A DNA stretch of 64,000 nucleotides, taken from Microbacterium sulfonylureivorans. GTDB lineage: Bacteria; Actinomycetota; Actinomycetes; Actinomycetales; Microbacteriaceae. Positions 56,640 to 59,915 of the stretch are shown piece after piece. Made by a program: the position numbers and the translations under genes. Location: contig NZ_RJAD01000003.1 of NCBI RefSeq assembly GCF_003999995.1, positions 430,361 through 494,360 of the forward strand, given 5' to 3'. Below the pieces are notes generated by a model, which saw only the letters and a list, made by a program, of their open reading frames with translations, was not told the DNA's origin and made no database searches. Position 1 is the first letter of the stretch. Each line of letters opens with the position of its first letter.

Positions 56640-56740
56640 CCAACGGGCCGTGAATCTGCGCCAGTCGTAATGATCGCGCGATCATGGACCGGTCTAGGGG
56701 CCATCTACGAGGGGTGCTCGAACCGATGTCGACGCGCTGC

Positions 56741-56746
56741 TACGTT
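56741..56746 (+). promoter_or_regulatory. -10 box, leaderless
   Basis: TACGTT followed by 7 nt and ATG 56754. Confidence 0.45.
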
Positions 56747-56753
56747 CAGCGGA

Positions 56754-57242
56754 ATGACGATCGATACGTGCGCGAAGTGTGGTGCGCCGTTGGATGTACA
56801 CGACCGCCACATCCGCTTCACTCAGCCCGAGCCCGTCCTGCGAATCGCATCGACTGATTCACCAGATGTGTGGATGAGCGGTACGGACGCCAATGAGTCA
56901 GTGCTGATGCAGGTCCAGGGCGTCGGTGCGTTCGTTCGTGCGTTGCTCCCAGTCCAGCTCACCGGCGGCCACACGGTGACCTACGGAGTCTGGGTTGGAT
57001 TCGACCCCGCGAACCTGCAACACGTTCTCGAAGTGTGGTGGACCCCGGAGTATGCCGACCTGCAAATCGAGGGCATACTCGCGAACGTCGTCCAGCCATG
57101 GGGGCTCTACGGCACGCCAGTCTCACTCCGAGTACTTAGCGTCGACGAAACTCCCTACTGTGTTACCAGCCCGGACAGCAGGCTGGCCTCCGTCATCAGC
57201 GACCATTGGGACCACCGGCTGATCTTGGACGCCCTACCCTGA
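56754..57242 (+). CDS. DUF2199-like protein
   Basis: 162 residues. CAKCGAPLDVHDRHI at the start (a possible zinc pair), HTVTYGVWVGFDPANLQHVL in the centre and a Trp-rich WWTPEYADLQIEG are close to the DUF2199 pattern. Unknown cytoplasmic function. Start set by a leaderless promoter rather than the longer open frame. Confidence 0.65.
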   Translation: MTIDTCAKCGAPLDVHDRHIRFTQPEPVLRIASTDSPDVWMSGTDANESVLMQVQGVGAFVRALLPVQLTGGHTVTYGVWVGFDPANLQHVLEVWWTPEYADLQIEGILANVVQPWGLYGTPVSLRVLSVDETPYCVTSPDSRLASVISDHWDHRLILDALP

Positions 57243-57313: not shown

Positions 57314-57843
57314 TCATCGTCCGGCCACGGCGGGTGCAGTGAAGTCTTCGAGCTGCGCACGGAGCACGGCTCGAGCTCGGTGGTATCGGCTCCGAAGGGT
57401 GCCTTCCTTCATGTGCAGGATGCGGCTGGCGTCGACCAGCGAGAATCCTTCCCAGTGGATGAGCGTGATGATGTCGCGGTCGATTGAGGGGAGCGTGGCG
57501 AGGGCTTGGTGGAGTTCGTCGTATTCAGCGGGATCGGCGAATCCGGCGTCGGGGAGACCGAAAGGATGGCGCGGAGACGATCTGTGACGGCTCGTTGTCG
57601 TGTGGAGCGGCGGTGGTGGTGCATCAGCACGTTGCGGGCGACCCCGAACATCCATGGGCGGATTTCGTCATCTGCGGCGGGCAGCGACGCGGATCGCCGC
57701 CACAGCACCAGCAGTGTTTCGGCTAGGAGATCGGCAGCATCGGCCGTGGGTTCGACTCTCCGGGTGAAGTAGGCCAGGACGTCAGGAGAGTGTGCTTTGA
57801 CGGCCGCTTCGACACGGGCGGCGCGACGGTCATCGGGGCGCAT
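57314..57843 (-). pseudogene. ECF-like sigma factor A, frameshifted
   Basis: Region 2 (DVLAYFTRRVEPTADAADLL, then RPWMFGVARNVLMHHHRR) is in one frame from ATG 57843, and region 4 (LATLPSIDRDIITLIHWEG, MKEGTLRSRYHRARAV) is in another. The frames meet at a GGGG run (57551-57554 plus strand); one extra base there restores a single protein that aligns with sigma B. ATG 57843 overlaps the stop of the membrane-protein gene (TGATG). It is either inactive, expressed by slippage, or a sequence error. Confidence 0.8.
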
Positions 57844-58439
57844 CAGGGCGTCTCCGAGATGCACGTGAACCCTGTCGCGTCAACAGCTCGGCCGTCTGCG
57901 GTGACGTGCTCTCCAAACCACGCGATGCCAGGGAACGTCTCCTGGGCGAATGCTTGTAGCTCTGGAGTCAGCCCCTCAGCGACACGGCTCTCCCCGTCAC
58001 GGTCGCCGGACACCGCGAGGCCTTCGTCGTAGAGACGTTGCCCGAGTCCTGACCAGTCGCGCGCGGCGATCGCCGCGTCGAGGGTGGCGCGGTCGCCGGG
58101 TTGGGGGTTGCGTAGTTCGATCCATGCTCTGCAGGACTCCTCGTGGCCGGCCTCTGTCGTCCAGTTCACCGGGATGGGCTGCGTGTTGCGCACGTTCTCC
58201 AGGGGCATGCTCACGCCAGCCCAGTGGGAGATGGCGACGGTTGCCGTCCCGGCGCCCGCGGTCAGTGCGATCGCGCCACCAACGAGCACCGGGAGCACCC
58301 ACCGCGCGCGCGGAGCTCGTCCACGCCTAATACGCGAAGGCATCGTGGCATCCGCTAGTCGCAGGGCCTCTGCCATGGCCGGCGTCGGCAGAGTTTCCGT
58401 CATGGACTCGAGTGCGCAGTCGAGATCGATCCGGGTCAA
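57843..58439 (-). CDS. Single-pass membrane protein paired with sigma factor A
   Basis: 198 residues. Cytoplasmic N-terminus of about 48 residues, one membrane helix (about 48-70, VLPVLVGGAIALTAGAG), and an extracytoplasmic domain of about 125 residues with two Cys (one in EESCRAW, one four residues from the C-terminus region FTCISETP). TTG start with AGGAGG 5 nt upstream. It is co-translated with the sigma gene after it, so it is a candidate anti-sigma factor, though no anti-sigma motif was recognised. Confidence 0.65.
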   Translation of the reverse strand: MTRIDLDCALESMTETLPTPAMAEALRLADATMPSRIRRGRAPRARWVLPVLVGGAIALTAGAGTATVAISHWAGVSMPLENVRNTQPIPVNWTTEAGHEESCRAWIELRNPQPGDRATLDAAIAARDWSGLGQRLYDEGLAVSGDRDGESRVAEGLTPELQAFAQETFPGIAWFGEHVTADGRAVDATGFTCISETP

Positions 58440-58487
58440 TGCATCCTCCTCAGTGCTCGACTACTCATTCCCGCCTCGGCTCGAATC

Positions 58488-58500
58488 GTTGCACAGCAAC
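58488..58500. promoter_or_regulatory. Inverted repeat between the two divergent cassettes
   Basis: GTTGC-ACA-GCAAC, a perfect 13-bp palindrome, about 50 bp before the cassette A start. It could be an operator shared by both directions. Confidence 0.35.
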
Positions 58501-58637
58501 CGAAAGTGACCCCGCACCGCCGTGGTACCAAACGCCGTCCAGCAAGCCAGCAAAATATTCTGGTCGGTTCACTTGGACGTTTCGATATCGGCCGGACATG
58601 TGCGGGGTATGAGGGAAGGCACGAGAGGATCTCAGCT

Positions 58638-59282
58638 ATGAATGATCACGAACGCGGCGAGCACGACGGGTTGGACAGACTCATCAGTCAGTCCGCGCCG
58701 GTCAGGACGGTGATCACGACCGAGATCGAGGAGGAGTTCCTGCGGATTGCTCGCGCGACCGGACCGGCCCTTGGCACGCGGAAGATGCCGCGACGGTGGG
58801 CGCTGGCAGGGATCGGTGTCTCTGCGGCGGTCATCCTCGGCACGGTCGGCGCGGCGGCCGCCGTCACCTTCGACGATTGGGCGTGGTGGGCTCAGGAACC
58901 CGACGGGGTCTACCTGTTCACCTCACCCACCGGCGACACCTGCGAGATCCGCGTTGGACGGATTGAGTCTGACGATCCACAGATCGAGCGTGCGCTCCGT
59001 GACGCGCAGGGTCAGGACCAGGTCCTCGCCAAATCAGACATCGCCGCAGCGGTGGAAAGCGAACGACGGCTTCATGAGGACTTCTACAAGCAGCAGCGAG
59101 CCGACGGGATCGAACCCTACGTTCAACCCGACTCCGTCCTCTACGAGATCGCCATCAACCGAGTCGCACACGACTACGCGCTCGAGCGACTGACAGACAG
59201 CGGCATCGACCAGGCTGCGCTGCAAAAGGCCGGCTTCTCCGCGTCGAGCCAGATCAACTGCAGTACGGACGACAGTGAATAG
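58638..59282 (+). CDS. Single-pass membrane protein paired with sigma factor B
   Basis: 214 residues. Cytoplasmic N-terminus (about 50 residues, VITTEIEEEFLRIARATGPA), one membrane helix (about 53-76, ALAGIGVSAAVILGTVGAAA) and an extracytoplasmic domain of about 135 residues with two Cys (GDTCEIRVG and the near-terminal INCSTDD). Same layout as its divergent partner but little direct identity. GAGAGG lies upstream of the ATG. The stop codon lies inside the sigma B start region (8-bp overlap). Confidence 0.7.
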   Translation: MNDHERGEHDGLDRLISQSAPVRTVITTEIEEEFLRIARATGPALGTRKMPRRWALAGIGVSAAVILGTVGAAAAVTFDDWAWWAQEPDGVYLFTSPTGDTCEIRVGRIESDDPQIERALRDAQGQDQVLAKSDIAAAVESERRLHEDFYKQQRADGIEPYVQPDSVLYEIAINRVAHDYALERLTDSGIDQAALQKAGFSASSQINCSTDDSE

Positions 59283-59799
59283 CCGCGGTCAGCACGACGA
59301 GGCCGTCGTGCGCGCGATCGCTCAGTCCTCCGGGGATCTGCTCGCCTACTTCGAGTACCGCGTGAGCCGCGACGAGGCACCTGATCTCCTCGTGGAGACG
59401 ATGACGGCGGCGTGGCGGCATGCGAACAACCTGCCGGCCGCAGCCGAAGAGGCGCGCATGTGGCTGTTCGGTATCGCCCGAAACGTCCTCGCCAACGCCC
59501 AACGAAGCGGCCGACGGCGCGTGCGGCTGGCCAATCGGCTGCGCGACATGCTCGCGACCGGGACTACAGTCGGCCCTCCTGCCGACACCGGACTCGAGGT
59601 CCGCGACGCCGTCAACAGACTCGCCGACCATCACGCCGAAATCATCCGGCTCGTCCACTGGGACGGGTTCAGCCTGGTCGATGCGGCGAAACTGTGCGGC
59701 ATCCCCGAATCCACCGCGCGAAGTCGCTACCAAGCCGCGAAACGTCAGCTGCGGGAAGCCCTCAGCCCCCAGCTCGTCGAGCAACCCACGGCGTCATGA
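59275..59799 (+). CDS. ECF-like sigma factor B
   Basis: 174 residues. Region 2: DLLAYFEYRVSRDEAPDLL, MWLFGIARNVLANAQRSGRR. Region 4: LADHHAEIIRLVHWDGFSLV, CGIPESTARSRYQAAKRQL. This is the minimal sigma-70 family set without other domains, as in ECF factors. GTG start overlapping the membrane-protein stop. A 39-codon reading frame begins at its stop codon. No target promoter is obvious. Confidence 0.85.
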   Translation: MNSRGQHDEAVVRAIAQSSGDLLAYFEYRVSRDEAPDLLVETMTAAWRHANNLPAAAEEARMWLFGIARNVLANAQRSGRRRVRLANRLRDMLATGTTVGPPADTGLEVRDAVNRLADHHAEIIRLVHWDGFSLVDAAKLCGIPESTARSRYQAAKRQLREALSPQLVEQPTAS

Positions 59800-59915
59800 A
59801 CATCGCGAACGAACTGATTCGCCCTGAGGCGATTGTCCTTCCGGCAACAATCTCAGTGACAATTCCCCTCCCGCCGCGAGGCTGGGAAGAGCCACATCCA
59901 AACTCCGTCGCATAA
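59796..59915 (+). CDS. Small ORF coupled to sigma factor B
   Basis: 39 residues, ATG sharing bases with the sigma stop (ATGA). Sequence begins MNIANELIRPEAIVLPATIS and ends with EEPHPNSVA; it is Pro/Ile-rich with no Cys. No match was recognised. It may be a small regulatory peptide or a chance frame. Confidence 0.35.
   Translation: MNIANELIRPEAIVLPATISVTIPLPPRGWEEPHPNSVA

Follow-up and report, generated by a model that had tools for sequence, protein, structure and literature searches.

In operons of class I anti-sigma factors the gene of the extracytoplasmic function (ECF) sigma factor usually comes first. An order in which the anti-sigma gene comes first is unusual, not unprecedented, being found in CnrY-CnrX-CnrH, NepR-EcfG, RsbW-SigB and SpoIIAB-SpoIIAC. 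CnrY, encoded first in cnrYXH, spans the membrane with one helix and lacks a large outside domain, the periplasmic sensor with which it works, CnrX, being a separate protein; NepR is soluble, is controlled by PhyR, and has no outside sensor domain. Two cassettes, in each of which the gene of a single-pass membrane protein comes first and overlaps the ECF sigma gene behind it, reside in a stretch of 64,000 nucleotides of Microbacterium sulfonylureivorans DNA (contig NZ_RJAD01000003.1, positions 430,361 to 494,360; the whole stretch is called the window below). Each cassette is probably a self-activating ECF signalling unit in which the membrane protein acts as anti-sigma factor and sensor. The best reading of the membrane protein is that of an undescribed short anti-sigma factor and sensor, which would be made before its sigma. 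It is most likely the inhibitor and sensor of the sigma because related bacteria keep both the gene pair and the control site upstream.

Gene order and conservation

The right cassette lies on the forward strand. The membrane protein gene (58638-59282, 214 residues), an open reading frame without Pfam or NCBIfam family and the proposed anti-sigma factor and sensor, overlaps by 8 nt the GTG-started gene of the right ECF sigma (59275-59799, 174 residues). Sigma regions 2 and 4 score above the Pfam cut-offs and other sigma regions are unmatched, which is an ECF layout; the best Foldseek match of this sigma is Mycobacterium tuberculosis SigL (6dv9).

Each of the two membrane proteins of the window was searched against 98 genomes. 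Fourteen right-type and eight left-type true relatives were found, each with a sigma gene immediately 3' of the membrane gene. The overlap between the two genes, counted from the sigma start codon nearest to the membrane gene stop, is 4 nt in 19 relatives and 1 nt in two, and is missing in one. Loci L027 and L039 (L numbers denote loci, G numbers genomes) were removed from the relatives as chance matches to membrane helices.

The profile of the right family matches 68 of 295 Microbacterium genomes. The main set derived from about 92 match rows includes 80 Microbacterium loci of about 10 kb, shorter at some contig ends, and partly overlaps the 22 relatives above. The locus of the window itself, G023:C409 (the same as L018), the second rows of split genes, and match rows on G210, G319, G312, G118, G161 and G185 were omitted. 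A sigma gene on the same strand is found directly 3' of the membrane gene in 79 of the 80 loci, the profile matches of the two proteins ranging from 51 nt overlapping to 24 nt apart. The exception is L158, which has lost the sigma and has an interrupted membrane gene. The 79 sigmas fall into 73 clusters at 90% identity. Since 79 of 80 loci keep the sigma beside the membrane gene, the association is far beyond chance, and is not accidental.

The same arrangement emerged when named genomes were searched with the sigma only. Visual inspection of the open frames placed a membrane gene directly before the sigma at 20 of 23 loci. In the other three the membrane gene is interrupted (L051), the locus abuts a contig edge (L055), or the sigma is truncated and no membrane gene was found (L064). 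The 23 loci span Cryobacterium, Microbacterium, Xylanimonas, Luteimicrobium, Demequina, Cellulomonas, Agromyces, Okibacterium, Glaciihabitans and Mycetocola, and one belongs to a metagenome-assembled genome labelled Actinomycetota. The reversed order, membrane gene before sigma, which had been pointed out in a first-pass annotation of the window, is therefore conserved in all three sets. Membrane proteins widespread without a sigma gene were not seen in the tabulated relatives, and the pairing proposed there stands.

Named homologues of the right membrane protein are all annotated as hypothetical. Among the literature matches listed, no title or beginning of an abstract describes the membrane protein-sigma pair or an operon of an ECF sigma and ffh, most subscription papers lying outside the survey.

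Membrane genes are interrupted or shortened in five of the 80 cassettes (L139, L158, L165, L170 and L171), suggesting decay. L171 has lost the outside domain, and retains a 63-residue N-terminus plus helix beside an intact sigma.

A proposed promoter upstream of the gene pair

A family consensus, GGACG(T/A)(T/A)(T/A)CG-N7-CSGGACATGT, was found upstream of the membrane gene. The site is 35 bases long, and ends about 21-31 nt 5' of the start codon in most rows. For 38 of 44 upstream regions, no more than 1% of 300 dinucleotide shuffles gave as good a match; the 44 regions include both cassettes of the window and some near copies, and near-identical sequences were left out in groups. The proposed autoregulatory ECF promoter of the right cassette (58573-58607, forward strand; GGACGTTTCG-N7-CCGGACATGT), identified by matrix scan and shuffles, ends 30 nt before the membrane start codon and matches the pattern without mismatch, and none of 300 shuffles was as good in the leave-group-out scan. 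ECF promoters are described in PMC8103513 as first defined by AAC and CGT boxes; the blocks found here read GGACG and CATGT or CACGT.

A second, two-block matrix was built from nine sites of other genera. With this matrix, both strands considered, 58573-58607 is the best site in the window (23.9, the next scoring 13.4), and the best site of the locus precedes the membrane gene in 74 of the 80 Microbacterium loci (43 of 45 loci linked to ffh, see below, and 31 of 35 others). With the best site standing just 5' of the membrane gene in 74 of 80 loci, autoregulation of the operon is probable from sequence.

A search of 25 genomes with the pattern, at most two mismatches allowed, gave 22 matches, 19 of which just before a cassette. 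With up to three mismatches 82 matches were found vs. 32 in the backward control, and 24 of the 82 fall at known cassettes. A narrow regulon is suggested, and is supported only in part by these counts. Some off-cassette matches with up to three mismatches recur alike between genomes (for example G012, G155, G156, G186 and G238), and may correspond to coding sequence or to further targets.

The membrane protein

The right membrane protein features a cytoplasmic N-terminus of about 50 residues, a transmembrane helix at about residues 55-75 and an outside domain of about 130 residues, as surmised in the first-pass annotation down to the two outside cysteines, here Cys102 and Cys208. In an AlphaFold2 model of the whole protein without its sigma, two helices are predicted in the N-terminus (residues 10-18 and 28-41, with block means of about 80); the membrane stretch is of low confidence, and the outside domain is confident, with strands bearing Cys102 and Cys208.

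Both cysteines are invariant in an alignment of 31 relatives. Such conservation would suit a redox switch controlling the anti-sigma factor, an idea raised in the first-pass annotation; a disulphide with a structural role in an exported domain accounts for it equally well, and the HX3CX2C motif is missing from the cytoplasmic ends of the membrane proteins in the window, so that a redox switch is judged very unlikely.

Neither membrane protein reaches the cut-off of any Pfam or NCBIfam family, and models of class I or zinc anti-sigma factors from the two collections gave no match at E values up to 1. A profile search of solved structures returned a single match, to a designed protein (E 0.23).

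A likeness was found at the N-terminus, to the CU044_5270 family (NF038083). Profiles of the N-terminal segments of the right family and of CU044_5270-like proteins align with an hhalign score of 27.0, a value reached by none of 60 column shuffles (best 13.7) and lowered to 8.0 upon reversal. The right and left families align in the same region with a score of 25.5 (shuffles at most 9.8, reversed 11.6). Some N-termini in the compared set are cut at doubtful start codons. CU044_5270-like proteins are ECF-linked, and feature the same N-terminal layout as the right family, a helix, a proline, a second helix, a basic stretch and the membrane segment. They differ by a longer outside domain, and by the sigma gene coming first: of 30 loci fetched (L208-L237), L209 was left out because of internal stops, and the sigma lies directly upstream in all the 29 examined. 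These are mostly looser relatives, 28 of the 29 scoring under the cut-off of the family itself. The window proteins also are under this cut-off (100 bits), the left protein scoring 7.2 bits and the right one giving no match. The earlier statement that the membrane proteins lack a recognised anti-sigma domain thus holds true, with the qualification that the N-terminus resembles these proteins.

The right family and the CU044_5270-like proteins differ in their outside domains and in gene order, yet both carry this N-terminal segment next to an ECF gene, as would be expected of a segment that binds the sigma. The N-terminal segment of CU044_5270-like proteins may be a widespread, uncharacterised anti-sigma segment. 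Among the papers surveyed, none was found under the family name CU044_5270. One CU044_5270-like locus resides in the genome of the window (G000:C1:1391594-1392403, L229).

The lack of a match to any anti-sigma domain model would also fit a positive partner or a tether, which might recruit the sigma to the membrane or stabilise it there, as well as a sensor working through another protein. A short N-terminus of two helices and a single transmembrane helix, encoded next to an ECF sigma that is probably autoregulated, make up a known anti-sigma architecture, such as that of CnrY, and the N-terminally similar CU044_5270-like proteins are ECF-linked as well. A role as positive partner is accordingly held to be unlikely, and an inhibitor is preferred.

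Proposed mode of action

From the gene order and its conservation, the overlap, the conservation of the promoter, the membrane architecture and the N-terminal similarity, all of which are read from sequence, we infer the following mode of action. The short N-terminus of the single-pass membrane protein would hold the sigma inactive at the membrane, while the outside domain, with its conserved cysteine pair, would sense an envelope signal. The overlapping second gene would make the sigma, probably by translational coupling; with the gene of the inhibitor first, little sigma would be made without inhibitor. Upon the signal the sigma would be freed, probably by proteolysis or by release of the anti-sigma factor, and would then transcribe its own operon from the GGACG(T/A)(T/A)(T/A)CG-N7-CSGGACATGT promoter just upstream.

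Several observations weigh against this interpretation. No known anti-sigma domain was detected with Pfam or NCBIfam. Docking of the N-terminus on the sigma is not demonstrated by a complex model of the right cassette, in which the membrane protein was chained to the sigma across the gene overlap with three sigma rows in the alignment, because the N-terminal helices are no more confident chained than alone (10-residue block means 50, 85, 75 and 73 vs. 56, 81, 79 and 84). The compact shape of the modelled sigma matches class II complexes, and may be the default of AlphaFold for ECF sigmas. The relatives share descent, hence 79 of 80 loci do not correspond to 79 independent events. Six of the 44 upstream regions (L015, L031, L034, L038, L053 and L054) have no significant promoter match, a better site lies elsewhere in six of the 80 loci, and the site upstream of the left cassette is weak, scoring 2.0 with the matrix of other genera. 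The second promoter test is not wholly independent, since an earlier matrix, most of whose seed sequences came from Microbacterium, had served to pick the nine sites used for training.

A large group of actinobacterial ECF sigmas with neighbours named hypothetical would gain a regulator from an inhibitor of this type, which comes with a precise promoter and a naturally reversed, overlapping design with the inhibitor first.

Linkage to ffh

In 45 of the 80 cassettes (L099-L178) the sigma gene is directly followed, on the same strand, by ffh, encoding the GTPase of the signal recognition particle (SRP). The gene was identified by the NCBIfam equivalog TIGR00959 in L099 and in the genome of the window, in other loci by similarity to L099. 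The distance from the sigma stop to the ffh start is 12-13 nt in 28 loci, 40-99 nt in 14 and 338 nt in L112; L100 and L113 gave no distance, owing to an interrupted frame or to a start that could not be located. No common downstream gene was recognised by eye in the gene listings of the loci without ffh, where no family scan was made.

The genome of the window (G000) carries ffh on another contig, C2, directly preceded by the deletion remnant of a third cassette (217691-219577, locus L251). In the remnant the promoter and the start of a membrane gene, with its first codons reading LDDLLAR, run straight into sigma region 4. The promoter of the remnant scores 26.1 (the next site on that strand of the locus scores 9.3), and ends 300 nt before ffh.

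Both the linkage, with 28 cassettes at 12-13 nt from ffh, and the strong promoter kept in the remnant would agree with a feedback on protein targeting, in which the sigma drives the membrane gene, itself and ffh, and the inserted anti-sigma factor reports insertion capacity. As part of such a loop the right sigma of the window would drive ffh in trans, from the promoter of the remnant. In the sigma tree, however, rows linked to ffh form nearly one clade, with five label changes, of which the starred branches force at least one; several rows, above all L166 and L164, carry a long-branch flag. So few changes point to one or few inherited insertions, and the linkage may reflect a single one. Moreover, when up to three mismatches are allowed, the pattern matches the genome of the window at three places (the right cassette, the ffh remnant and one other) vs. 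two for the backward control, and therefore does not single out ffh by itself.

Besides G099, a cassette before ffh was detected in none of 28 other genomes, 26 of which have no detected right-type cassette. Two genomes without a detected right-type cassette have a site near ffh, a strong one in G013 (21.8, 19 nt before the gene), perhaps another deletion scar, and a weak one in G001 (8.2, 97 nt before). In each of the 22 genomes whose detected cassettes all lie elsewhere (G050, G007 and 20 others) there is no promoter at ffh, the best score on its strand being 8.4. This rules out ffh as a general target, and leaves any control of ffh lineage-specific at best; plausibly, ffh is a co-transcribed gene in one lineage rather than the general target of the family. 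The feedback on protein targeting is accordingly judged quite improbable. An equally low probability is given to the combined view of an undescribed, sensor-type anti-sigma family for which, in a large Microbacterium lineage, ffh would be the clearest predicted sigma target besides the operon itself, closing a transcriptional feedback loop on the SRP. If true, the linkage would exemplify an ECF sigma directed at protein targeting.

The left cassette

The left cassette points away from the right one, the two being separated by a gap of 198 bp (58440-58637), close to the shared region of about 200 bp reported earlier. On the reverse strand, the left membrane protein gene (57843-58439, 198 residues, one transmembrane helix and two outside cysteines; proposed anti-sigma factor and sensor) has a TTG start preceded by GAGGAGG. 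The likely ATG of the left sigma, at 57843, overlaps the stop of the membrane gene (TGATG); in both cassettes, as anticipated, the membrane gene is followed by an overlapping sigma gene. The weak promoter-like site of this cassette (58459-58493, reverse strand; AACGATTCG ... CGGGAATGA) is reached by none of 300 shuffles with the family matrix.

The left and right sigmas are 43% identical over residues 11-102 and 45% over residues 108-163, and the paralogy proposed for regions 2 and 4 is confirmed. The left ECF sigma (57314-57864, reverse strand) is not, however, the single gene it had been taken for. Pfam regions 2 and 4 are both present, in separate frames (region 2 in the open frame 57409-57864, region 4 in 57314-57655), and the frame changes in the linker between the two domains. 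The sigma is in a single open frame in each of the eight left-type relatives. A broken gene, or a sequencing or assembly error, is the simpler account. A two-subunit sigma and a programmed frameshift were rejected, no convincing start signal or slippery site being found by eye. As the left sigma is split over two frames, only the right cassette looks intact.

The description of the two cassettes as twins is not supported in a functional sense, given the split sigma and a divergent layout that is not conserved: at E values up to 0.01, no other intact cassette was detected within about 5 kb in any of the 80 Microbacterium loci. In L172 a weak second match (E 6e-4) is found downstream of another sigma. 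A gene for a DUF2199 protein (E 3.4e-8, above its cut-off) adjoins the left cassette at 56670-57242 on the forward strand.

Comparison with known systems

Class I anti-sigma factors (RseA, RskA, RsiW, RslA) are, like the membrane proteins proposed here, inhibitors encoded with ECF sigmas. They differ in sequence, as the window proteins match no class I model and their N-termini have no HX3CX2C motif. The CnrY-CnrH pair of Cupriavidus metallidurans resembles the cassette in architecture. No sequence match of the window proteins to CnrY appeared, yet a short cytoplasmic segment of two helices next to an ECF partner is what is predicted for the right membrane protein. CnrY is described in PMC7406223 as a class II anti-sigma factor whose first helix binds sigma region 4 and whose last helix binds region 2. 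The cassette would work as a CnrY- or RsiW-type unit of an anti-sigma factor and its ECF sigma.

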